Below, piece after piece: positions 1 to 13,846 of a stretch of DNA of 64,000 bases. A program made the translations under genes and the position numbers. This DNA is from Erythrobasidium yunnanense. Lineage: Eukaryota > Basidiomycota > Cystobasidiomycetes > Erythrobasidiales > Erythrobasidiaceae. Below the pieces are notes generated by a model. It was given only the letters and a program-made list of their open reading frames with translations, was not told where the DNA came from and made no database searches. The stretch is taken from assembly GCA_001600175.1 (NCBI GenBank), contig BCJC01000001.1, positions 2,899,652 to 2,963,651 of the forward strand. The letters are read 5' to 3'. Numbering within the stretch: the stretch's first letter is position 1; each line of letters opens with the position of its first letter.

Positions 1-1
1 T

Positions 2-409
2 CCCCTAGACTCCGGTGCTTGTGGTGGTATGGAGGAGTCCAGAATGTTGCGTTACTTGAGGAACGACGCCGAATATTATGGACTGGCAAGGCTAGCGGAA
101 GCAATCCGCAAGGAGATGGATAGTATGGAAAGTAAGATGGATAGTATGGAAAGTTGTCGGACTAAGGAGGCAGATCGGCAGGCTCGCTTCACCCTTCGTC
201 AATTGGATCTGGAGCATACGAAAGTTCGCCTGGCTCTCCACGAAGCTCGCGTCAATGGACACTTACGTCACATCGAAGCAACACGCGCGCAGTACAATCA
301 GATCAAGGCCTGGGACCTCGAGACGCACGCTTGGAAACAAACAGCCGCGGAAGATGAGGATGATCCTGAAGAACAAGAATTACTAAACGAATTGGTAAGG
401 AGCTATTGA
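2..409 (+). CDS. BTB/T1-domain protein, array copy 1 (5' end outside window)
   Basis: This is the C-terminal part of a BTB (KCTD/potassium-channel T1-like) protein. The window begins inside the domain: frame 2 reads PLDSGACGG and then MEESRMLRYLRNDAEYYGL, the same end of the BTB fold seen in the complete copies to the right. The fold is followed by a charged, coiled-coil-like tail of about 100 residues with a repeated KMDSMES unit. BTB domains of this type form oligomers and often act as adaptors; nothing here shows a partner. The frame ends at a stop after NELVRSY. A GT at the end of LLNEL and an AG near 460 would permit a short extra exon, as in copies 3 and 4, so the exact C-terminus is uncertain. 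A non-homologous unknown gene follows. Confidence 0.75.
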   Translation, partial: PLDSGACGGMEESRMLRYLRNDAEYYGLARLAEAIRKEMDSMESKMDSMESCRTKEADRQARFTLRQLDLEHTKVRLALHEARVNGHLRHIEATRAQYNQIKAWDLETHAWKQTAAEDEDDPEEQELLNELVRSY

Positions 410-1095
410 TGAAGCGTAGGATTCACACTGATCAGAACATCATTACAGCGGCACAAGCATTCTGATGCCCTTCAGGGATCGCTGGATGCGTTGGGTCAGC
501 TAGTATACGATGTGCCCCAGTTGCATTAGCCAATGAGATGCGGAAGGACTCTTGACAAGTTCTCGAGCTTGGTAGGGAACGCTCCCGGCCTGCTCGGGCC
601 ACCGAGGAGGCTGCACCGGCCGACAGGCTTCAACTTCTTTGAATCAAGTGCACTCCGCAACCCGACAGTGTGACAAGTCCACGCTCGCGATGCTGCAGGA
701 CACTCCAAAAATCTACCCGCTCCGTCTATCGTGCAACAGCTCCAACGCCGCGATGGTCACCTCAATTAGGCGTCATGGAAGCTGGGAAGCTCGATGTTGG
801 CGACAAGCCACAAGCTTGGGTCGCTTCAGGGTGTTTGATGTTGTGTGTGTGCAAGACGATACTTTCCACCATGCAACTCCGGCTCCCACCCGTCACGGTC
901 AGGTTGTCGCCGTCATTCCGCTTTACCGTTCACTCGACGGTTTTCAGCCTTGTGTCTTGCCCTTGTTGGGGCTTGCTCGAATCACATCCGACGAGTCCTC
1001 AAAGCGCTCCGGACTTCAGGTGCTTTCGCTCGCGCCAAAACAATCTCCGCTTCTCTACTCTCTACGATCTGTGGATCTTGTGGCTTCAAGCGAAC
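410..1095. other. Spacer with no supported gene
   Basis: This 686-base stretch separates BTB copy 1 from the first unknown-family gene. It has several overlapping plus-strand frames of 94-169 codons, but none shows homology to the second member of the unknown family, whose upstream exon is quite different. It may hold an unrecognised 5' exon and the promoter of the following gene. I see no other structure. Confidence 0.4.
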
Positions 1096-2281
1096 ATGTC
1101 GAACTCCATGTGAGGGCTATAAGCCATAGTTCTGGTATCAGGGACTGACATCTGCCAACAGTACTGCTGCCGGACAGCGGCCACCTTTGAAGCACTCCCA
1201 ATCGGGTCAACTGGCAAATCCGTCAGCCTCCCCTACTATTAAGTCCGCTGCTGGCCAGCGTCCTCCTATGCGTCGATTGTCGTCAAGCCAAACGTCGGTC
1301 CTGTCCTCTACTGCCAGTACCAGATCATTATCTACAGCAGGCTCGGCTGGTGGGGTGGACAACCGTAGACCTGGTAGCAGACGTTCATCGACCGATGCTG
1401 CAGAGATTGACGCAAACGTCCCACCTCGCACACGTCGCGCAAGTGTTGCAGACTCGTTTGCTGCATACTACGCCAGTGTCATGGACGAAACGCCGCCGCT
1501 TCAGAGAGTCCTAATGTGAGTAAAGCTTGTCTTACGCTAGCGCACACCGTTTCCTAATTCTTGAGATAGGCCTCAGCCCGCTTGTAGCTTACCTTCTCAC
1601 TACACCTTCGTCAACAACCTCTTTGTAGACCTGCTGAAACGTCGTTCCAAGCCGACCGCGCTCGCAAACCCCCAGAGAGAAGGGTACGCAGGAAGAGAAA
1701 CGGACTATAACTTGCTGAACCCGACTGCGCCATCAGTTTTGATGGACTACCGAAACAATGATTATGCGGAATATTGGCACAATTTTGGGCAGCTCCGGAT
1801 CGACCAGTCGAGCGAAGCTGCCCAGATCAAATTAACTTTCTCTCATGGAAAGAAAGACATGGAGATCGCTAGTACCCTCGACAAATGGGGCCTCGCTCAG
1901 GGCAGCTTCTCCGGCTGTTCGGCAGTGGCAGTAGCCAATGTCTGCGGGCCCGCTATGCAAGGGGACGGCATCTTAGTCGTCTTCGACTGGCGACTCGACA
2001 GAAGGGAGAACAATCGACCCACATGCGACGCATTTACCATGGTCGGCTTCTATAGCGATATCCAGGGTTTTAGGAATATCCTGAGTCATCCCAGCTACCT
2101 CCTTCCAGAGATCAGGGAGCCCGGTAAGAAGTATCCCAAAGCTCCTTGGATGGTGCCTGTCGCCTGTTCAGAGCGTAGACTCCCTTTCCGCAAGGACGAG
2201 ATGGTCGTGTTCCGACTAGGAGGAGGATGGCATGCCCGAATGATGGATGCATACGATATTCGACGTGTTGTCGCGTACTAG
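1096..2281 (+). CDS. Unrecognised protein family, member 1 (U1)
   Basis: I do not recognise this family. Three exons are proposed: 1096-1109, 1162-1515 and 1570-2281, about 359 residues. The evidence is the parallel structure of the paralogue at 3699-4927: in both, exon 2 opens with T-A-A-G-Q, is a low-complexity Ser/Thr/Arg-rich region, and ends at the same phase. The last exon opens with P-Q and soon reads LPSHY. The globular C-terminal part carries matching blocks in both members: DYNLL, a central MEI segment, IANVC/VANVC, GDGILVVF, MVGFYS, KAPW, LPFRKDEMVVFRLGGGW, RMMDAY and a terminal VVAY. There is no signal peptide or membrane segment. It lies between BTB copies 1 and 2 on the same strand. 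The first exon encodes only about five residues and is the weakest part of the model. Confidence 0.6.
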
Positions 2282-2617
2282 TCTGGGTGAACTTGTATCT
2301 TTCAGATCACTTGTCGTCCTGTTTTGAAGCGATAGAAACGCCTTACTCCTTTCTCTTGCGCTAACCGGCTTCTACTAGTGTGGGTGAAGAACGAGGATAC
2401 TCAGTGCTGAATCATACAACTCCTGGAGCAACGCAGTCCGATGACGCCTGATTGCAGATATGAACGGTGTTTGTCGCTACAAAAGCCAGCGGAACCTCAA
2501 GATGAACAAAGACGGAAAGGCGACCATGTTGCTCGTCCCACCGACACTGCGAAAGCGTCACTATCTCTGGTCCATCTCTTGACTTCCTAAGGTCTTGCTA
2601 ACTCAGACTACACCGCC
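2282..2617. other. Spacer between U1 and BTB copy 2
   Basis: Non-coding spacer of 336 bases, close in length to the 316-base spacer between U2 and BTB copy 3 (4928-5243). Presumably it holds the 3' end of U1 and the promoter of copy 2. No obvious TATA box or other site is seen. Confidence 0.4.
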
Positions 2618-3162
2618 ATGTCTCCCAAAGCAATGCCTGAATACAAAGTCATCGTGTCAGGAGTCACCTTTAAGCTCAGTGAGGCATCGCTGCAAAGTGA
2701 TAGCCCAGGTACAAACCTACTCGCGATGGCACTCCTGGGCGACTTCTCCGAAGCAAGGGACAAAACTCTGGTACTGGAGCGCAACGCTGTCTGCTTTGCT
2801 CTCATTCGAGATCATCTCAATGGCTATACCATCTTTCCACTTGAGCGTGCGTCTGCTCCGGGCTGGACGAAGCTAGAGTACTCCGTTACCTGAGGGACGA
2901 TGCCGAGTACTACGGGCTGCAACGACTTGCGGGAGCAGTCCGCGCCGAGATGGATGCTCAAGCAAGCAGCCGCGAGGCAAAGATGCAAGCTCAGTCTCTG
3001 TACGAGAAGGAGCGCCTTGGCATTGAACAGGCAAAGGTTCATATGGCTACCCATGAAGCTCGCTTCAGCGGACATTTGCGTCATATGGAGACAGTCCGCA
3101 CGTACTCTGACAAGATTCGGGAGTGGATGGAAAGATGCCAATTGGGACGGTCAGCAGAATGA
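2618..3162 (+). pseudogene. BTB/T1-domain gene, array copy 2, frame broken
   Basis: The ATG at 2618 opens MSPKAMPEYKVIVSGVTF and the frame follows the family through LLAMALLGDFSEA and RDHLNGYTIFPL. At about 2861-2866 the other copies read Gly-Met-(Asp/Glu). This copy has GGCTGG, one A short of GGCATGG, so the frame shifts and stops a few codons later. One frame over, the domain resumes as RVLRYLRDDAEYYGLQRL and continues into a coiled-coil tail ending ERCQLGRSAE at 3162. No intron interrupts this position in any other copy, so splicing is an unlikely explanation. A single-base sequencing error is the alternative. If real, the product would be a truncated BTB fragment of about 91 residues. Confidence 0.7.
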
Positions 3163-3698
3163 TCCTTGGGGTAACGCAGAGGGGCTAGCCAACGAAGTGA
3201 GGCATTTGTTGAAGTGTATCCTATCTGTGATATGAGCTGAGAGCGTCTTTCGATAGAGGGCGCTTCACTTACAAGCGCTCAAGGCATCTTTAAAATCGCT
3301 CGGTTCGCTGGTGACGCAAGACCCGTCACCAAAACTAACGGAACCCCCGCAAGAGATGATCCTCTAGTACAAACCCTACTCAATTGCGTCAAATCTCGAG
3401 ATCAGGTCATTCTTCATTCTGCTGTTCCAAAATGCGCCTGTCGATGTATGGTATCCCGAGTCGTCAGCTCCACCAAGTGAGAGACTTGCTTAAATAACCT
3501 ATGATCTACGATATATCTTGGCATGCCTCGGCCTGTCGGCTGTCCCTTTGATGCGGCGATTCCCAGACTTTCACCGGATCTGAGTCTTATGTATTCTCGA
3601 AAAGCATCCGAGCAGACATTAAGCCGAGGCCGAGTGCAGATAATCTGCTGCTGTAGACACAGGCCATCCCTCTCCTCTCACCCTCCATTATACAAGCC
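3163..3698. other. Spacer between BTB copy 2 and U2
   Basis: This 536-base stretch corresponds in position to the spacer at 410-1095. An 80-codon plus frame at 3523-3765 overlaps the proposed first exon of U2 in a different frame. I see no similarity to U1 or to known families, and nothing else that can be supported. Confidence 0.35.
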
Positions 3699-4927
3699 AT
3701 GCATTCGAAGCGCACTAGAGCCTTCTTCTTCAGAATCGCCTATCCTCGTCACCCTGCGAGAGTAAACGAGGCCAAGTGAGCATCTTTTACAACAATATCC
3801 TCGACTATAAGCTGATAGATCGGTAAACAGTACCGCTGCTGGTCAGCACCCCGGCACGAAGCCGTCACAGTCGAGTCAGCCGGCAATTCCGTCTCCTCAA
3901 GTTAGTACCAACTCTGCTGCTGATCAGCATTCTACCACACATCGGTCTCTATCAAGTCAAACGTCGGGCTCGTCCACTACTACCAGCGTCAAACCTCCCC
4001 CTACCACAAGCTCGCATCCTAACGTACAGGGCCCTATGGCTAGACGCTCGTCGGGCCAGTCTACCATGTCAGCGTCCACATCATCGTGTCGTTCCTCCAT
4101 TAGCTCGGTATCGTTTGGCGCATACTGCGCCAATGTCATGAACCCGATGGCGCCGCTCCAAATGCTACTCACGTAAGGATTGGCTTTCGATAGGCGGTCT
4201 CTGATTGGGTACTCATGGTCGGTTCTTCTCTCGCAGGCCCCAGACCCCCACAGACTTGCCATCTCACTACGGTACCGTCAGCGCCAAATTTGTATCCATG
4301 TTGAAGAGTCCTTTCAAGCCTCGGGACCTGGTCTATCCGCCAGTGACAGGTTATCCTCCAGTACGGTGCGACTACAATCTCCTGAGGGCGACAGAGGAGT
4401 CCCGCCGAACCGTCAATCTCGCCTGCGAAGGCTCGACGTCCGGGCACAACTTCGGTCGACTTTGCATTGATATCTCGAGCCAACCTCCCAAGTATAAGCT
4501 GAGCTTCTGCCATCAAAACCGATCCATGGAAATTGTAAGTGGTTTGAACAAGTACGGTGGCGCGGAAGGATGGGGCGCCAATCTTCGGGCAATAGCCAAT
4601 GTGTGCCGCTCTACTCTGCAAGGCGAAGGCATCCTGGTTGTCTTCTTTTGGGAACTCGAGCGCAACGAGCCGATATGTCAGCGTATCTGGATGGTTGGCT
4701 TCTATAGCAAGGTCCACCATTCCATCGAGAGTCTTCCCAGCAACATTCTCCTATGGAGGGATGAAGCGGGAAAGAAAAGGAAGAAAAAAGCTCCATGGCA
4801 TGTCTCTACGCCCGATGGGGAGAAATTACCTTTCCGGAAGGATGAGATGATTATCTTCGAGCTCGGAGGGGGATACGACGATCGAATGATGCGTGCATAC
4901 GGCGCAAGACGCATTGTAGCGTATTAG
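3699..4927 (+). CDS. Unrecognised protein family, member 2 (U2)
   Basis: Paralogue of the gene at 1096-2281. The proposed exons are 3699-3775, 3831-4172 and 4237-4927, about 369 residues. Exon 1 starts MHSKRTRAFFFRIAY. Exon 2 is Ser/Thr-rich with repeated SS/TT runs. Exon 3 carries the conserved globular part: LPSHYG, DYNLL, MEIVSGL, AIANVCR, GEGILVVFFWEL, MVGFYS, KAPWHV, LPFRKDEMIIFELGGGY, DRMMRAYGARR and a terminal IVAY. The two members share intron positions and phases, which supports both models. No known domain, signal peptide or transmembrane helix is evident. The conserved end (FRKDE, then a Gly triplet, then RMM) looks like the core of a small folded domain. Function is unknown; its neighbours are BTB copies 2 and 3. 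Confidence 0.6.
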
Positions 4928-5243
4928 TATGAGTGCGCTTGGTCTTGTAGCTGCCTTGTTGCTCCAGCAATCGGCCTCCTCTCCCTTGCGAGAACCGGCT
5001 TCTACCTCTACAATGAAATGGAAAAGCACACACATCTAGGTCATGTCACGATTGCAGCAACGACTCTGTGACACTGGCAACATGATCACAACGTCTTTGG
5101 TCGGAGGCCAGCGTAGCCTCGACATGTAGAACCGCACAACAGTCTTTGTGCTCGTCCCCAACTCGCCTAAGCAGACCTAGTCACAAGCGTCTCTTGCTCT
5201 CATATCAACAGTATTATCATTGGCGCATCAAGCCTTCTGCCAT
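4928..5243. other. Spacer between U2 and BTB copy 3
   Basis: A 316-base spacer with no gene on either strand that I can support. It should contain the U2 terminator and the promoter of BTB copy 3. A TTG-initiated extension of copy 3 from 5220 is possible but adds nothing conserved. Confidence 0.35.
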
Positions 5244-5996
5244 ATGGCTTCCAAGGCAAACCTCAATTACAAGATCATCGTTTCTGGCGTGACCTTCCAG
5301 CTCAGCGAAGCTTCACTGCAAAGCGACAGCCCACATACCAATCTCCTGGCCATGTCGCTGCTGGGCGACTTTGCCGAAGCAAACGACAAGACCCTTGTCC
5401 TCAATCGCAATGCGATATCGTTCGCCCTCGTCCGAGACCACCTGAATGACTATACGATCTTTCCACTTGATCCTCCCGCCTGTGCAGGAATGGAAGAGGC
5501 TAGACTGCTTCGCTACTTGAGAGATGATGCCGACTATTACGGGCTGCAGCGACTTGGCACTCTGGCTGAAGACGAGCTGGGGAGGATGACAAACATGCGG
5601 GCAGAGCTAGAGCAAGCTCAGGCTGCACGAGAAGCAATGCAGGTTAAACTCAAGCAGGCAGAAGTCCAGATTGCCGCGCAGAAGGCGCGCATCAAGCTCG
5701 CCGAGAGCTGTATACTTCTGGCATCGGATCGAGCAAGCAAGTTTCTGACATGGCAGGATTGGGCACAGAAGAATGGGCTTCCTGGTGGAAGCGCCGCAGA
5801 TAAGGAGGTCACGGTAAGCATCCACAAATCGGTTAATGAAGCCGCAAGCTCAGTTGGCCGTCTCTGCTAGGTGCGAGAGCTATGGAGCAACATGTACTCT
5901 GGCTTGCGAGACTATACTTCGATTCGAGAATCGCTGGCCGCCGAGGTGGCTGCTCTGGGTGCCATGTCTGCGGACGCTCCTAGCAGTAAGGCGTAA
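5244..5996 (+). CDS. BTB/T1-domain protein, array copy 3
   Basis: Two exons (5244-5813 and 5871-5996) give 231 residues. The BTB/T1 fold fills about residues 8-100: YKIIVSGVTFQLSEASL, NLLAMSLLGDFAEA, LVLNRNAISFALVRDHL, YTIFPL, RLLRYLRDDADYYGLQRL. This pattern of a first strand, an F-x-x-I/V hairpin, a D/NR-(D/N) turn and an ending YYGL matches the KCTD/potassium-channel tetramerisation type of BTB. A heptad-like, Glu/Gln/Lys-rich segment (AELEQAQAAREAMQVKLKQAE) follows. Exon 2 adds an amphipathic end from VRELWSNMYSG to the final SSKA. There is no BACK, Kelch or MATH domain, so it resembles a stand-alone oligomerising adaptor. The start was chosen because the same M-x(6-9)-Y-(K/T)-(I/V)-IV spacing recurs in other copies. 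This is one of the best preserved members. Confidence 0.8.
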
Positions 5997-6141
5997 AGGC
6001 TTGTGACTCGACTACCAACGGTTGATGCAAGCTGCCTTCGGCGGGCGTTCCAGGCCTGGCTTTGTAATACCGGCTTTCCGCTTGTTTGGCACATCATGTC
6101 ACCATCGCATCTCGTCCATGCATTCAGGGGAAGACAGACAG

Positions 6142-6147
6142 TATAAA
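6142..6147 (+). promoter_or_regulatory. Candidate TATA box of BTB copy 4
   Basis: TATAAA lies about 140 bases upstream of the proposed ATG at 6286, inside the 289-base spacer after copy 3. The position is plausible for a fungal promoter with a long leader, but this is only a motif match. Confidence 0.35.
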
Positions 6148-6285
6148 ACAAATAGAGGCTGAACGGATCCCAATCCTTCCTTCTCAGACATGCACACTCC
6201 CTGCACTCCTCCATTTGTCACCTCTGATCTTACCATACACAACGAAGACCTTTCTGTGGTATCCCTATCCTCCACATTCCAGACG

Positions 6286-7057
6286 ATGGATCACGAAGAC
6301 ATGTATACTGTCATCGTTTCTGGCATGAGTTTCCGCCTCAGCGGCGAGTCTATCCTAAGCGATGGCTCTGAAAATAACATCCTCGTCAAGCGTCTCATAG
6401 GCAGGTCCGAGAACTTCAGGGCAGGAACCATCACCTTTGATAGAGATCCCATCACCTTCGCGCTTGTTCGTGATCATCTCCGAGGGTACACGATCTTTCC
6501 CCTAGACAAGGCAGATTGCGCAGATCTGAGCGAGGCAAAGGCTCTACGTTATGTTCAAGATGATGCAAAGTATTATGGCTTGAAAAGACTGCAAGAATTG
6601 GTTGAAACCGAGATACTTCGTACTCAAGAACTCGCATCCAAAAGCGCCGAGCTGGAGAATCTACGTAAGCGTCTCTGCGTTTGTCTGATGTATAGGTGCC
6701 TGAAACATTTGACAGGCTCGCACGAGCACTTCGAGAGAGTGAAGGAGACTCATAAGCTACAATTTAGACGCATGGAGCTGGAAGAAGCGAATACAAAACA
6801 TCAAGCGCGCATCGCGGCGGCGGAACAGCATCTAAGCTTCATCAAAGAGAAAGTTGCTACTCACTCCGCTATGACTGGCCATGGCATGCAACACCTTCAT
6901 GACAAAGGGAAGGTATACGATGATCTAGTAAGGAATCGCCCGACATTCAGCGTTTTTCTTCTGATGCATTCTACACATACAGTACCGCGCCATTGATAAC
7001 GAATGGGCTGCGGCCCAACCCACTCTGGATGCCTTGGCTGAAATACGCGACCGTTAA
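6286..7057 (+). CDS. BTB/T1-domain protein, array copy 4 (divergent)
   Basis: Three exons (6286-6664, 6716-6927, 6983-7057) give 221 residues. The N-terminal BTB core is present but drifted: YTVIVSGMSFRLSGESILSD, then NILVKRLIGRSENF where other copies read NLLAMSLLGDFAEA, then ITFDRDPITFALVRDHLRGYTIFPL and ALRYVQDDAKYYGLKRL. A long coiled-coil-like tail rich in Glu, Lys and Arg follows, with an intron inside it. The last exon encodes YRAIDNEWAAAQPTLDALAEIRDR. The first intron is a multiple of three and open, so an unspliced product would remain in frame. The DRDP turn is closer to canonical T1 domains (iDRDP) than in its neighbours, suggesting an older or separately evolving copy. Confidence 0.75.
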
Positions 7058-7386
7058 GGGATGCAAGAAGAAGCAAGCTACGTACCAGACTGCTGGAAGG
7101 AATGGGCAGTAGTCTTTGTGGAATCTATAGCCTTTGCTCATATATCCTCACCTCTCATATCTCACATGAGCATCTACGATGTTGGCCATCCTCATTGTGG
7201 TTACAGACCTTCGTTTGGGACACTCGACGAGTTGTCCAAACTGACGTCAGTCGTTATACGGCTGGCCAGCGAAAAAAATTCGCATCAAGCTGAAGCCTTG
7301 TCGACAGAGACGAGCGCCTCTTGACCTTGTCTCCATCTTCGTTGAAAGGTCTGCAGTTCCCTCTCTCTCTCCAAACGTGCCCCAGC
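7058..7386. other. Spacer between BTB copies 4 and 5
   Basis: This 329-base spacer has small overlapping plus frames (62-87 codons) that resemble nothing else in the array. I regard them as chance. Presumably it contains the copy 5 promoter. Confidence 0.35.
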
Positions 7387-7997
7387 ATGGTCTCTTACAA
7401 AGTCATTGTATCTACTGTCACCTTCACTATTACTGAAGCATCTATACGCGCCGAAACTAAGACAATCTCCTGGCTCTGTCCATGCTCCGTGATTTTAAAG
7501 AAGGCCAAGACAGGACGCTCACGCTCCAGCGAGATCCCACCACCTTCTCCCTCATCATGGATCACCTCAATGGATACACTATACCGCCTTTGGACGCTCC
7601 AGCCTGCAGCGGGATGGATGTAGCTAGAGTGCTTCGCTACCTGCTCGACAATGCCGGATACTGCGGCTTCGCGCGATTGAAGGGCCTCGCTGAAGCAGAG
7701 ACCGAGAGGCTTGAAAGCGTACGAAATACAGCAGCTGAGCAGGCAGTGCAGATCGCGGAAGGAAAGTTGCAGGTGGACCGAACACGACTGGCCGATGAGC
7801 ATAGCAGGCTGGCTCTGACTGCTTTCGAGACTCGCCTGAAGTACCACTGCAAAGGCATCGAGGTAGTTAGCGCTGCAGCAAATAGATTGATCTCGTCTGT
7901 ACATAGCCAGAGAGCGGAAGAACGCGCAGTGCGTGCCCGCTTTTTCGATTTGGACCGTTCGCACACCGTTCGAGCGCTGACTTGTTATTGTGCTTAA
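7387..7997 (+). pseudogene. BTB/T1-domain gene, array copy 5, frame broken
   Basis: The ATG at 7387 opens MVSYKVIVSTVTFTITEASIR, the normal start of the family. Around 7457-7461, where other copies encode S-D-S-P-x-T-N-L-L, this copy is short by one base in the codon series and the frame is lost. One frame over it continues as DNLLALSMLRDFKEGQDRTL, RDPTTFSLIMDHLNGYTIPPL and ARVLRYLLDNAGYCGFARL, then a helical tail to a stop at 7997. Several otherwise invariant residues have also changed: GDF to RDF, IFPL to IPPL, DDADYYGL to DNAGYCGF. That agrees with relaxed selection rather than a sequencing slip. Translation from the internal ATG at 7482 would give a BTB lacking its first strand. Confidence 0.65.
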
Positions 7998-8478
7998 CAA
8001 CATGCAATCAATGTAGAGTTGGAAGCTTCGCTAGCCACGCCGAAAGCCGTGGAAGCTGCTATACCGAAGGTCAAATGATAATTGCGCCAGGATAATCCTC
8101 ATAATCGCCTGATGGCACAGCTAGGGTCGAACTGTCTATCAGATAAACAGCGCCTCGAGCGAACTTCTTAGTTTGTCTCGATTTCGTACCTGTGCCTGCA
8201 AAGTCTTGTTGCATGGACCGCTTGGATCTGTACCGGCATGCGAAAGTTTCGAAGCTTCGCAAGATGATGACTCTCTCATTTGCTCACACTCGTTATCATC
8301 AGCAACATCTGGTCTTGCTGCTAAAGGGTCCTTTCTCGCCGTCCACCGCAGACTTGATAGTCTAATCTCTCTGTCCTGCTCGTCGCTTTGATTCAAAGTA
8401 GGACGCCTCGCAGCGATTAATATCGCGCTGCCTTACGCCTTCTTATATCAGCAGTCCTGCTCACATCCTCAGCCAGCC
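7998..8478. other. Spacer between BTB copies 5 and 6
   Basis: The largest spacer of the right half of the array (481 bases). Short frames occur on both strands (72-85 codons) without recognisable features. A TATA-like TTATATCA lies about 30 bases upstream of the copy 6 ATG. Some of this sequence may be the decayed 3' end of copy 5. Confidence 0.35.
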
Positions 8479-9147
8479 ATGGAGACGTACACGGTCATCG
8501 TTTCGGGCGTCTCGTTCAGCCTGAGCGAAGCATCAATCAGAAGCGATAGTCCAGATACAAATCTCCTCGCTATGTCTTTGCTAGGCGACTTTGCAGAAGC
8601 TCAAGACCGAACACTGGTGCTCAATCGGAACGCTACGACTTTCAAGCTCATTCGAGACCACCTGGCTGGATACACTGTCTTTCCGCTTGTCCCTCAAGAC
8701 TATACTGGCATGGAGAAGTCCAAGTTCATGCGCTACTTGCGGGACGACTGCGATTACTATGGCTTGGATAATCTCAGCAAAGCGTTGAAGCACCAGGCGG
8801 CTATAGATTCGCAGACCAGCGAAGCAGAAACTCTGGGACAGTTGAAGGACGCACAGGAGCGCTACAAGATAAAGTTGGGGATGTACGAAATGCACTTGAA
8901 GGCCGTCAAGCAGAATGCAGATATGCTTAAGGCGAGCGTTGCGGATGCCACCGCTGAGGTAAGTAGGGCTTGCTACAGCAGTGTCCATGTCCAGCGTCCG
9001 CTTGAGGAGGTAAGACAGCCCTCCCGCATCGCCCTTGCCATCGGCCTGACAATTTGCGGCATTCAGCGTTGCGACGCTGTCAAAAAAGGCTTCGCAAAAG
9101 CCACGGAGCGCTACATATCTTTACTCTGCAATCCGCCTACTCCATAA
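8479..9147 (+). CDS. BTB/T1-domain protein, array copy 6
   Basis: METYTVIVSGVSFSLSEASIR opens at 8479. The BTB core is nearly identical in pattern to copies 7 and 8: SDSPDTNLLAMSLLGDFAEA, LVLNRNATTFKLIRDHLAGY, TVFPL, FMRYLRDDCDYYGL. The tail is predicted helical. After TAE at 8958 there are good GT/AG signals giving exons 8479-8958, a possible 15-base micro-exon at 8995-9009, and 9067-9147, ending RYISLLCNPPTP. The unspliced frame is also open, so the tail model is uncertain (191 residues if spliced, 222 if not). Copies 6-8 share the DDCDYYGL variant and the TTFKLI segment, so they form a recent subgroup. Confidence 0.78.
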   Translation: METYTVIVSGVSFSLSEASIRSDSPDTNLLAMSLLGDFAEAQDRTLVLNRNATTFKLIRDHLAGYTVFPLVPQDYTGMEKSKFMRYLRDDCDYYGLDNLSKALKHQAAIDSQTSEAETLGQLKDAQERYKIKLGMYEMHLKAVKQNADMLKASVADATAEVSRACYSSVHVQRPLEEVRQPSRIALAIGLTICGIQRCDAVKKGFAKATERYISLLCNPPTP

Positions 9148-9459
9148 AGCAGCCATCTTTAGGAAGCGTCTGTCGAAACTGCCGCCCCGCGTGACTGCCG
9201 CCTTCCTTACCTATGCTACAAGCTGTATCTGCGCGCCATTATGTAGCAAAGATATACACACAGTATGAGGCTGGGCAAGAGTCAAATTCTGCTTAGTCAC
9301 AGCGTCAGACGTGGAGCGCATCAAGCGGTCATCGCAAGCTTTCATCACAATTCCGCCATTGCACTCTCCTTCGTCTTCTTTCCATTCTTCATCGACACTG
9401 TTCTGAGGAGATTCGATTTCTATCAACATCCTCTTCCCCTTTCCTCCTTTTAGTCTGCC
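9148..9459. other. Spacer between BTB copies 6 and 7
   Basis: A 312-base spacer. Small frames on both strands (62-72 codons) show no feature I can support. A pyrimidine-rich tract (CTTCCTTTCC-type) precedes the copy 7 ATG, as is common near fungal transcription starts. Confidence 0.35.
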
Positions 9460-10137
9460 ATGTCTACGCTCGACAGCAAGGCGATGTACACGATCATCGT
9501 CTCAGGCGTCACTTTCACTCTCAGCGAAGCCTCTATCCGTAGCGATAGTCCCGATACCAACCTCTTGGCCATGTCGCTTCTTGGCGATTTCGCAGAAGCA
9601 GGAGAGCGAACGCTCGTGCTCGACAGAGATGCCACAACCTTCAAGCTCATCAGAGATCACCTCGCTGGATATACAGTGTTCCCTATCGGCGAAAAAGACC
9701 ATCCAGGAATGGACAGATCGAAGTTCCTACGCTATCTGCAAGAGGATTGTGACTACTATGGCCTGGAGAGCCTCAAAGAGGCGCTCAAGCGAGATCATAA
9801 CGCGTCATCGCCGAAGTCTTCCATTCTGATTGCCGATCTTATATCGGAGAGACCAGAAGAAAGTATCTCGGTGGACTTAGCGGCGTATCAAGTGCAGGTG
9901 CAGAAGAAAAAGGAGCAGTTGGACATGCTCAACAAGCTTCTCAGAGACACTGCAGGCAACAATTGCTATCCCTATGGGTACGTGCGATGCCCAGACACTG
10001 TATGTTTATGTCAATATAGTACTGCCAAGTTGCGGAGTTGACTGATTCGACTACAGTCGCGACCTCATCTGCTAAAAAGAGCCGAAGAAATCTACAAGGA
10101 CCTGATGCTCTTGTTGGATAGCCCGTTGGCGAAGTGA
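9460..10137 (+). CDS. BTB/T1-domain protein, array copy 7
   Basis: Exons 9460-9999 and 10057-10137 give 206 residues. The core reads MYTIIVSGVTFTLSEASIR, SDSPDTNLLAMSLLGDFAEA, LVLDRDATTFKLIRDHLAGY, TVFPI, FLRYLQEDCDYYGLESL. The LVLDRDATTF turn keeps the Asp-Arg-Asp of canonical T1 domains. The tail is Lys/Glu-rich and likely helical. The chosen donor is GTATGT at 10000, because only this phase lets the last exon read SRPHLLKRAEEIYKDLMLLL and end at SPLAK, a pattern like the last exons of copies 6 and 8 (basic-acidic helix with LL near the end). It is most similar to copies 6 and 8. Confidence 0.78.
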
Positions 10138-10547
10138 TCCTGCGCAAACCTTCTGCGAGAAGCCTGCAAAGCCGTGTGACAACTGGGACGGTAGCTGTAA
10201 TTTGGCCGACTAGATCTGGATGTAGCCTGTAGACGAGATGCTCCGCTTTCCGGTCATCTTAGGATGAGTTCAGGTTTGAATGTCATCGGACTATCACAGT
10301 AATGTGGCATTCCCATCTTGTTTCTCCCATTCTGGTCTGCTTCCTTCGCCCTCGTCATGTCAGTGGAACGGCTTACGTCGGACGGTCGGCGCATCAACAC
10401 CTCATCCACGTTTCAAGCTCGACTGCAACTAGGAAAAGGACATGTTCATGGACGCCTCCGCCTGCTACGCTCTTACCACGCAAGCTTCTCCCAGATACTC
10501 TTCACATATTCTCGGAATCCGTCCCCTTGTCCTGCTTCCCGCTTGCT
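10138..10547. other. Spacer between BTB copies 7 and 8
   Basis: A 410-base spacer. The copy 8 frame is open upstream to 10302, but the extra residues have no counterpart in other copies, so I treat this as leader and promoter sequence. Pyrimidine-rich stretches lie just before the ATG. Confidence 0.4.
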
Positions 10548-11289
10548 ATGTCCGATGCCAAGACCATGTACAAGGTCGTTGTCTCAGGCGTCAGCTTTAC
10601 CCTCAGTCAAGCCTCGATCCGCAGCGACAGCCCAAATACGAATCTCCTGGCCATGTCTCTGCTTGGCGACTTTGCCGAAGCAGAAAAGCGAACGCTCGTG
10701 CTCGATAGGAATGCAACTACCTTCAAGCTGATCAAAGACCACCTTACTGGCTATACTGTCCTGCCGATCGATGATACGGATGAGCATGGCATGAGTGCTG
10801 CCAGAATGTTGAGGTACCTGCGGGATGATTGCGACTATTACGGTCTGAAGAGGTTGGGAGAGTTGGTCGACAAAGAAGTCAAAAAGATGGAGGGTTCGAT
10901 AGTCCAATCTGCACTTCAGCCAGATATGAACCAAAGAGACGGGAAAGACACTGCGAAGCTGCCAGGCATCGAGATGTACATACAAGCTCATATGCTTTTG
11001 GTCGAGGCTGCCAAATTCCAGCTGGAATGTGACAAGGAGCATTACGATCGATCTCAGTCCCTTTTCGCAAGCGGGGTAGGCGACGCATTATGTTTTCGTA
11101 CGGCTGTCCTTGGCTGACTCGCTTGAGCATGACAGCTCAAACATACCTCTCAACGCAAACTGACCGATGCCACGAGTGCGCTGCACAAGCTGCTGTTGGA
11201 GCGAGAGACAGCCAGTGAGTGGCACTTCAACGATTTCGCTAGACTTCTGAGTCATAATTTACATCTTTACCGGTGCAGCAGTTCGATAA
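10548..11289 (+). CDS. BTB/T1-domain protein, array copy 8 (last of array)
   Basis: Proposed exons 10548-11075, 11136-11214 and 11279-11289 give 205 residues. The protein starts MSDAKTMYKVVVSGVSFTLS and carries the family core: SDSPNTNLLAMSLLGDFAEA, LVLDRNATTFKLIKDHLTGY, TVLPI, MLRYLRDDCDYYGLKRLGEL. The tail is charged and helical; exon 2 reads LKHTSQRKLTDATSALHKLL. The last exon is only 11 bases and ends ETATVR, supported by a consensus GTGAGT donor at 11215 and a CAG acceptor at 11278, but an 11-base exon is a weak call. The stop lies 4 bases from the stop of the convergent gene at 11294, so the two transcripts must overlap at their 3' ends. Confidence 0.75.
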
Positions 11290-11293
11290 ATCA

Positions 11294-13085
11294 TCATTGC
11301 CATTCCGCCCAGCTCTGTTCGACTTCGTAGCCAAATAGATCCTTCACCAGTAAAGCTACAGAATTCCAAGCCGAAACAGTCTGCAAAATCCAGGATCAGC
11401 GTTGCCTTCTCTGACAATGTGCATAATTCACCGAAGTCTCCATCGTGGACACCCATCGCTCGAAAGCGGACGTATAGTAGAAGTGCGATGAGTTGTCAGG
11501 CTTGAATGCTGGAAGGTCTTCATCTTGGCCAAATGGTGGCGCTTCAGGATAGGACGCCCAGTCTTTTCGATGTACCCAGAGCACTTCGGTCTCGCCGAAA
11601 GCTTCTTTGAGATCATTATCCGAGAGCTCATAGGAAGTAAAAACTGCGCGATCCGTCAGCTGGCACAATTTCTTGGGACACGCGATCGCCTACTCTTCAC
11701 AACGTGCCCGACACCTCGCTCATCGTCCAGCTTGCCCAGATTCCGAAGATAGTTCATCGAATTCACTTTCGGTTTCGTAGCTATCCTGCCAACTTCATAC
11801 GGGTCTAGCGTTGATAGAATAGTATTCGGTACTTTCTCCTTCGTACCAAAGAAAGCCGATCTCGGATTCGTAGCATTCGTAGCGACAAGCGTCACGTATA
11901 GATGCACGTATGGAAGAACAGGTATGCGAGAAGGAATATCGGAGTTGACGAAGTGGACAGGCGGAGTCTTGACTGGAGAAGGAGGATGAAGAGGTGCAGC
12001 ATATATGATGGCGTCGTACTCTTGCGTCGAGTGTATGCCGCTCTCCACATCTTGATACTTGATGAGCCATTCTCGGCCGGGATGATCTTCCTGCTTCGTG
12101 ATAGTCGAGACTTGCGTCAGGAGGTGCACCCGGGCATTACTTCTTGCTATAAACTCTTCGAATATGCGTTTGTTGCCGCCTTTGACACTCGATGCGCCTT
12201 CGCCAGCCATAGATACCATGCCTTGAACTGCAGGAAAGTCAGCGTGCATCGAAGTTGTCTAGCGAGCGACTTACACGCATGCATCCTGTTCGGAGCTTGA
12301 CCGTAATTGACGCATACAGCTGCTCCGACCAGTTCTTGCACGAACAAGCTGCCCACTTTCAGGCTTTTCAGGTAGTCGGAAGTGCTTTGATAAGCGAGAG
12401 TATCAAGACCCAGTACTTTGGCAAAGCTTTCGATAGTCTCGTATGGGCCCTTCTTCTGGAACTCTCCACCGTAGAGAGCTACAAACTTGTCCACCGTAGC
12501 TTTGACTGCATCTCGCGTTGTGAGCGGTCCCAGACCATATCGCCAGACGAGTTTGGGTATATTCCACCATGCCCAAGAGGACTCTCGGTAGACGAAGTTC
12601 TCTCCATCCCATATGCTCATTCCGCCAGCATCTTCTTCCGATGTTTTGCCTCCACCATGCCCATCCTGCAGAGTCAGGTTGAACTCCTTGACTGCCTTCC
12701 AGAGGTTCTTGTTTGCAGGAACGAAGATGGATGCGCCTAATTCGAGTGCCGGCGAACGTGTATCATCATTTGTGTAATCGTCATCGCCCTCGAGACCGAA
12801 AGGGTGTACGAAGGTACTTCGACCGCCAATGTAGTCGCTAGATTCGAAGAGATCAATGTCCACGGCTAAGGTAGGGTTATGTTCAGCCAGGAAGGTCAGG
12901 AAGAAGGCGCTTGATGATCCGGCAGCTCCACCGCCGATTATGGCAACACGAGGCCGGGGCAGCGGTCGTACAGACTCAGGATTGGCATCAAAGACATGTT
13001 GGTGAGGATCTTGATGCGCAGAGACGTCGCAAGCGAAGATGAACGGCAATGCAGCCGTAAACAGTCGCGGGTAGGCCAGCTTCAT
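11294..13085 (-). CDS. Prenylcysteine oxidase/lyase-like FAD enzyme, secretory
   Basis: The family oxidatively cleaves prenylcysteine released from degraded prenylated proteins, using FAD in the lysosome/vacuole or secretory route. The start at 13085 gives a signal peptide (MKLAYPRLFTAALPFIFACDVSA). Next comes the FAD-binding Rossmann motif PRVAIIGGGAAGSSSAFFL, the second dinucleotide segment DIDLFESSDYIGGRS, and ELGASIFVPANKNLW, all typical of the family. The middle domain includes VNYGQ and, after a splice, QGMVSMAGEGASSVKGGNK. The C-terminal part has SHFYYTSAFERWVSTMETS and continues through a last intron to a terminal AEWQ. At least four exons are needed: the intron near 12265 joins at RMHAF, one near 11700 joins at DDERVFTSYE, and one near 11420 joins at METSTVSAW. 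It is convergent with BTB copy 8, with 4 bases between stops. Confidence 0.85.
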
Positions 13086-13846
13086 GGCTGAAGAAACGAG
13101 CCAGAATGCGAGTAAAGAGAAGGTATAGATATCCTGATAGTTGGTTCTGTAGTGCCAAGCAGTCGCGCTTTTGTTTCTGCTCACATCCGAAGCGCCGGGG
13201 AGGGTCGAGAGCAGTTCGAGCTACCTGGCTCTGCTTCACTCGCACACCTTGAAAACAGATCTCATCAATGCGCGCAAGAAGGCTATGTTCTGATGCTTCT
13301 ACCAACATCCTAAGCTGGCATGCAACGTGCTGTAACAATGCTGATGCCCAACTTGCTTTCCAAAATTCTGATGCTCGGGAACAAGGCCAATGTGAGTGTC
13401 CACGCTGAGAAGAGATAGTTCTATGCTGATCTATCCCGTAGGCTAATGCAATTCGTATCCTGCCTATACCCTTCCCAACTCTGCTGGTCTTCCACGCGCT
13501 TGCTGTGGTATATCTTCGATATATCCACTCAATGTAGCATCGCAACTGCCCCTTCGGTCCTGTCAAGGACATCTCCAGAAGACTCGGTAATGCTGGAAGA
13601 CCTAGACTAGTACATATACAGCCTTGTCAAATAAGCCGGGAACTGCAAAGCGGATATATTAGCTACGCTGCAGGTCTGACATAGCTTACAAGCAACATTA
13701 TGCAATGAAACTTTGTGTCCATTCCTAATGAGACGTTGTGCGGAAGTCCGCTAAAATCGGCCCTATCTACACTACTACCCACAAGTTTTGCCCGATGCTG
13801 AGTAGCTACACGAAGCCTTTGACAATCATAGCTCTCTCTCCCTAAT
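13086..13846. other. Intergenic, promoter of the prenylcysteine oxidase-like gene
   Basis: This 761-base stretch lies between two minus-strand genes. A minus-strand frame of 194 codons (13572-12988) overlaps the start of the downstream gene in another frame and has no recognisable domain; I regard it as a shadow. The right part should hold the 3' UTR of the carboxypeptidase gene. No other gene is seen. Confidence 0.4.

Follow-up and report, generated by a model that had tools for sequence, protein, structure and literature searches.

A provisionally orphan gene pair, U1 and U2, in a BTB-like gene array of Erythrobasidium yunnanense and its likely duplication together with a BTB neighbour

When two genes of an unfamiliar family each stand directly behind a gene of a familiar one, has a working pair been copied, or has a bystander been carried along? 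This question is raised by a 64,000-nucleotide stretch of the genome of the basidiomycete Erythrobasidium yunnanense (C1:2899652-2963651, the whole of which is called the window below; the genome comprises 20.9 Mb in 10 contigs), in which two paralogous genes, U1 and U2, are interleaved with a tandem array of genes for BTB-like proteins. A preliminary description of the stretch had proposed that the U genes belong to an unrecognised family, that a BTB+U pair was duplicated as a unit, and that the products of the pair work together. Our overall reading, to which we assign a probability of about 0.6, is that U is a fast-changing, apparently lineage-restricted family lodged in an unstable BTB array, and that BTB+U was duplicated once.

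All four introns of the U gene models have GT-AG boundaries (52 and 54 nt in U1, 55 and 64 nt in U2). They lie at homologous positions and in the same phase, in agreement with the shared exon phases of the preliminary description: the coding length before the intron is 14 nt in U1 and 77 nt in U2 for the first, and 368 and 419 nt for the second, all leaving a remainder of 2. The start-to-start distance, previously put at about 2.6 kb, measures 2603 bases. Judged by homology, U1 and U2 are real protein-coding genes of the predicted structure, the least certain part of each model being its first exon, which is short and dissimilar between the copies (14 versus 77 nt). Exon 1 as proposed for U2 codes for a stretch of basic and aromatic character, MHSKRTRAFFFRIAYPRHPARV, that is absent from U1 and could be either a targeting signal or a wrongly chosen exon.

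The two U proteins are 45% identical over 355 residues by blastp (expectation values, E, 9.9e-72 and 2.4e-75); in a MAFFT alignment 161 of 347 aligned residues are identical, and 111 of 228 in exon 3 alone. Differences fall at 181 of 347 third codon positions versus 265 of 694 first and second positions (p 2e-5), and the nonsynonymous (dN) and synonymous (dS) divergences are 0.50 and 1.35. Because of this third-position excess and these dN and dS values, the pair is judged to have diverged as coding sequence. The Ser/Thr-rich N-terminal part reported earlier was found again, with serine plus threonine at 26% (U1) and 31% (U2) versus 10% and 12% in the C-terminal part, and the C-terminal blocks LPFRKDEM, LGGG, RMM and AY and the terminal VAY are conserved in both proteins. 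Judging from its sequence, U would be intracellular, its Ser/Thr-rich N-terminal tail disordered and its C-terminal region, about 230 residues long, a folded domain. Whatever is said here or below about where U resides, its disorder and fold, what it binds and what it does is inference.

An internal repeat of AAGQRPP type, about 16-26 residues long, was noticed in the N-terminal part of both U proteins (window positions 1163-1291 and 3832-3987). It occurs twice in U1 and in weaker form in U2 (0 of 2000 shuffles and p 0.007, for segments picked after the repeat had been noticed) and, being present in both, probably predates the U duplication. RRxS is a kinase consensus, and the N-terminal part of U1 contains three such sites (shuffled mean 0.33, p 0.005) and that of U2 one (p 0.15); kinase sites were set aside as a feature of U because the U2 count is not significant.

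Relatives of U were sought within the genome and beyond it. Searches of the genome with U1 and with U2 exon 3, at E up to 10, detected no locus other than U1 and U2. Throughout the genome the pattern PFRKDEM matches exactly only in these two genes; with two mismatches it occurs at five further places, and the reversed control at six. Pfam returned no family for U1 and, for U2, two matches of about 12 bits against cut-offs of 25-27, with no BTB match. NCBIfam had no match to either exon 3 translation, and PHROGs gave none for one U query and a single match at E 0.46 for the other; among 177635 PDB sequences (E of 10 or less), the one match to U was a lectin (E 1.2 over 28 residues). From 5.8 billion proteins, a U2 query drew 1752 candidates, none at E of 10 or less. 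The exon 3 alignment, used as a query, drew 1173, none a match, in a collection that seems to cover the lineage poorly. Two U peptide patterns gave 18 pattern matches in viral contigs and 97 in contigs of prokaryote genomes, with no confirmed relative in either set.

The two-member family was thus linked to no known family in any of the Pfam, NCBIfam, PHROGs, PDB, protein or contig searches. As a yardstick, a BTB3 query drew 630 candidates and recovered only 4 proteins, whose contigs are 901-2022 bases long; close fungal relatives therefore seem hardly represented, and the absence of U there says little. Since the collections seem poor in such relatives, U is provisionally termed an orphan family, as far as the searched collections reach. 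Among the top-ranked papers of a literature search, no title or abstract opening describes a BTB+U pair like this one, which is not proof that none is in print.

The array genes beside U resemble, at scores below the family cut-off, BTB proteins of the KCTD/Whi2 kind. The corresponding Pfam family, BTB_2 (PF02214), was matched by three of four scanned array members (BTB3, E 0.0078; BTB6, 0.032; BTB8, 0.0047) at 15.0-17.7 bits, below the cut-off of 21.4; neither BTB4 nor an unlinked copy on C9 gave a BTB_2 match. Metagenome relatives of the array proteins behaved similarly, with P0001-P0003 at 14.0-17.8 bits and P0004 at 21.7, above the cut-off. When the best candidates were scored genome-wide, the matches listed for PF00651 (BTB) fell at 13 places, none of them in the array, and those listed for BTB_2 comprised only one weak place, outside the array. 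A profile of seven BTB copies detected no BTB chain in the PDB at E of 1 or less, the best matches being MbtH-like chains (0.07-0.14). BTB6 is 83% identical to P0003 and 81% to P0001, and P0002 scores best with BTB8 (56%), which points to similar genes in related organisms; P0002 and P0003 each lie on 2022-base contigs, possibly one and the same. Fungal Whi2 and human KCTD proteins are described as having a common N-terminal BTB subtype and very divergent C-termini (PMC6126876).

The tandem array consists of eight BTB-like genes, all on the + strand; it begins 212 bases before the first base of the window, ends at about 11.1 kb and has the order BTB1, U1, BTB2, U2, BTB3 to BTB8 (Table 1). Each U lies directly downstream of a BTB copy, as had been described, so that two of the eight BTB genes are followed by one. 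The spacers read from the sequence are 566 bases between BTB1 and U1, 336 between U1 and BTB2 and 316 between U2 and BTB3; the 3' end of BTB2 is uncertain, and with it the BTB2-U2 spacer.

That BTB and U were duplicated as a unit is likely, though not proved. In a 66-residue N-terminal block compared in eight copies (BTB5, in which the frame is broken there, was left out), BTB2 is nearest to BTB1 (88%; BTB3 is next at 83%), and the C-terminal piece of BTB2 likewise has its best match in BTB1 (90.9 bits; BTB3 is next at 63.2). The dS values of BTB1-BTB2 (1.50) and U1-U2 (1.35) are compatible with one event. In addition, the 3' flanks of U1 and U2 contain a matching 30-base block (repeat family D5, 87%), with a local alignment score of 40 versus a maximum of 29 in 100 shuffles. 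When 45 spacer pairs were aligned under a filter that allowed at most 3 of 100 shuffles to be as good, two passed, these U 3' flanks and one 12-base match (1 of 100) that we regard as chance. Compared with shuffles, the U1-U2 alignment reaches a z-score of 5.9 over the 200 bases after U, 3.8 in intron 1 and 2.0 in intron 2. The earlier proposal of a unit duplication is thus favoured by the closeness of BTB1 to BTB2 and by the block in the U 3' flanks, and it stops short of proof.

Several observations weigh against our reading. U is present after two of the eight array BTB genes and absent after six, and the BTB2 frame is broken beside an intact U2. Five BTB pairs have a lower dS than BTB1-BTB2 (BTB3-BTB8 1.01, BTB7-BTB8 1.25, BTB3-BTB6 1.31, BTB7-C9 1.40 and BTB6-BTB8 1.44) and the values are near saturation; dS therefore does not single out the BTB1-BTB2 pair. 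None of the five inner branches of a BTB tree built on the 66 columns is supported, the BTB1-U1 and BTB2-U2 spacers failed the local-match filter when compared, and the last 200 bases before U reach a z-score of 2.6. Structure prediction of the U proteins was also poor. Fold prediction, which the preliminary description had recommended for residues from about 110 to the end, yielded no usable model of exon 3: AlphaFold, given the other paralogue as the only further row in each case, returned a mean predicted local distance difference test score (pLDDT) of 35.4 for U1 and 31.0 for U2, and the first model, mostly strands, is too low in confidence for use.

The array shows signs of instability. 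The frame of BTB2 is broken near 2851-2863 and, as judged from open frames, possibly again near 3130; this break and that in BTB5 may mark pseudogenes or assembly errors. A ninth BTB copy is unlinked (C9:715528-715950); in its N-terminal block it is 60-67% identical to six of the seven array copies compared and 35% to BTB4, and no U was found in the 9.9 kb around it. The frame breaks and the unlinked copy fit a process of birth and death. We envisage that a U-family gene adjoined a KCTD/Whi2-like BTB gene, and that the BTB+U segment was then copied once inside a tandem array that was gaining and losing copies. The mechanism that seems likeliest to us, though still rather doubtful, is that U binds one or more of the array BTB proteins or is bound by them; these would be oligomeric adaptors of Cul3 type or Whi2/phosphatase type.

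That the BTB and U products work together, as had been suggested, is a hypothesis. Both adjacencies would stem from one duplication and therefore count as one observation, and the scarcity of U among the array BTB genes and the broken frame of BTB2 beside U2 speak against it. We consider functional coupling of U with the array BTB proteins possible and rather unlikely. Hitchhiking is at least as likely as a functional link: U would be an orphan gene with no tie to BTB, caught up in an unstable array of BTB genes and copied once by unequal crossing-over, and its function would be independent of BTB, an alternative that we place somewhat short of even odds. It would account for U following two of eight array BTB genes and being undetected around the C9 copy, for an intact U2 next to a frame-broken BTB2, and for a U1-U2 dN of 0.50 that is about six times the dN of 0.08 in the BTB1-BTB2 core (66 codons). 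Against it, both U frames and all their splice sites have stayed intact since a duplication with dS above 1, and the order and strand relative to BTB have been retained, a weak argument. The rate contrast also loses reach and is limited to the BTB core, since the BTB1-BTB2 tails, with 47% identity across 100 residues, have diverged about as far as U. Rapid change in U could reflect either an adapting partner or weak constraint. Known ways exist for BTB adaptors to use partners, since matches to cullins occur at several places in the genome and yeast Whi2 acts with the phosphatases Psr1/Psr2 on TORC1 (PMC6126876). The strongest form of the functional view, in which U is a new protein class serving as dedicated partner (client, regulator or substrate receptor) of the local KCTD/Whi2-like BTB set in a two-gene cassette, with U and the BTB tails changing fast around a constrained BTB core, we regard as improbable. 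Were BTB and U to cooperate, the locus would represent a two-gene cassette of a constrained adaptor core and a fast-changing orphan partner, and offer a tractable case of a new protein family being taken into a regulatory system that fungi already had; otherwise U is an ordinary orphan gene copied within an unstable gene array.

Other explanations of the U genes fare worse. The exons assigned to U might be parts of longer transcripts that also include BTB, or exon 1 of each gene might be wrong, as the shortness and dissimilarity of these first exons would allow. Exons 2 and 3 are nevertheless conserved in frame in both copies and BTB1 has its own stop at 529; its donor is in phase 0 and the acceptor of U exon 2 needs phase 2, so a BTB1-U splice loses the frame. 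We hold this explanation to be quite unlikely. U might instead have been the C-terminal module of a BTB fusion gene and have become detached from it. A model for this exists in a second tandem array, to which P0004 led us, at about C5:1339764-1347509, where each of five BTB-like matches is followed by a copy of a C-terminal module with the common signature LYDLWQG...FLxFCDV...EWxCT. Several of these BTB-like matches hold stops or frame changes, which may be either introns or breaks; outside this array the module was not found in the genome, and it matched nothing in the PDB or, in any of five rows, in Pfam. A relationship between U and the module was rejected, profile comparison by hhalign giving a probability of 0.3% and E 0.23, and U is therefore not recognisably a detached copy of it. 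When frames of at least 75 residues in 19.8 kb of C5 were searched with a U profile, the best match (E 0.027) was a low-complexity frame beyond the last BTB copy. The sequence largely refutes this explanation, which we consider very improbable. An origin from a mobile element or virus would be in keeping with the failure to find cellular relatives, and seems the least probable of all: no inverted repeats of at least 25 bases occur in positions 1-12000, no relatives were found in viral contigs and the best PHROGs match had E 0.46, U is spliced and present in two copies only, and its GC content at third codon positions (0.57 and 0.59) falls within the 0.54-0.64 of seven other frames.

Table 1. 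The BTB-like and U genes and the flank blocks, in window positions
Feature	Position	Strand	Remarks
BTB1, 3' part	1-529 (exon 1 to 394, exon 2 449-529)	+	starts 212 bases before the window; own stop at 529
U1	1096-1109, 1162-1515, 1570-2281 (three exons)	+	359 residues; open frame after splicing
30-base block, U1 3' flank	2346-2375	+	matches the block in the U2 3' flank
BTB2	2618-3236, 3' end uncertain	+	tblastn with BTB1, BTB3 and BTB6; two pieces in different frames
U2	3699-3775, 3831-4172, 4237-4927 (three exons)	+	369 residues; open frame after splicing
30-base block, U2 3' flank	4976-5005	+	matches the block in the U1 3' flank
BTB3	5244-5813, 5871-5996 (two exons)	+	open frame; exon ends read from the sequence; no U after it
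BTB4	6286-7058, end approximate	+	tblastn; most divergent array copy
BTB5	7387-7997, end approximate	+	tblastn pieces in two frames; break near 7458-7464
BTB6	8479-9147, end approximate	+	tblastn
BTB7	9478-10041, ends approximate	+	tblastn
BTB8	10548-11117, end approximate	+	tblastn

Directly after the BTB array, a prenylcysteine lyase-like gene lies on the minus strand at 12150-13220 (Pfam E 6.6e-20).

Taken together, we favour the reading of U as a fast-changing, lineage-restricted family whose BTB+U segment was duplicated once, and it can be set beside three known systems. The likeness to the Whi2/KCTD type belongs to the BTB neighbours and not to U, and even these differ from the reference family in scoring below the BTB_2 cut-off. 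The array on C5 is likewise a tandem series of BTB-like genes paired with a module that has no Pfam match; unlike in BTB+U, that module is predicted to follow the BTB exons within the same genes, and it is unrelated to U. Lineage-restricted, or orphan, fungal genes are short, spliced, fast-changing and tandem-copied, with no detectable relatives, and U is like them in every one of these respects; it differs from such families in that its copy appears to have taken in the BTB neighbour.

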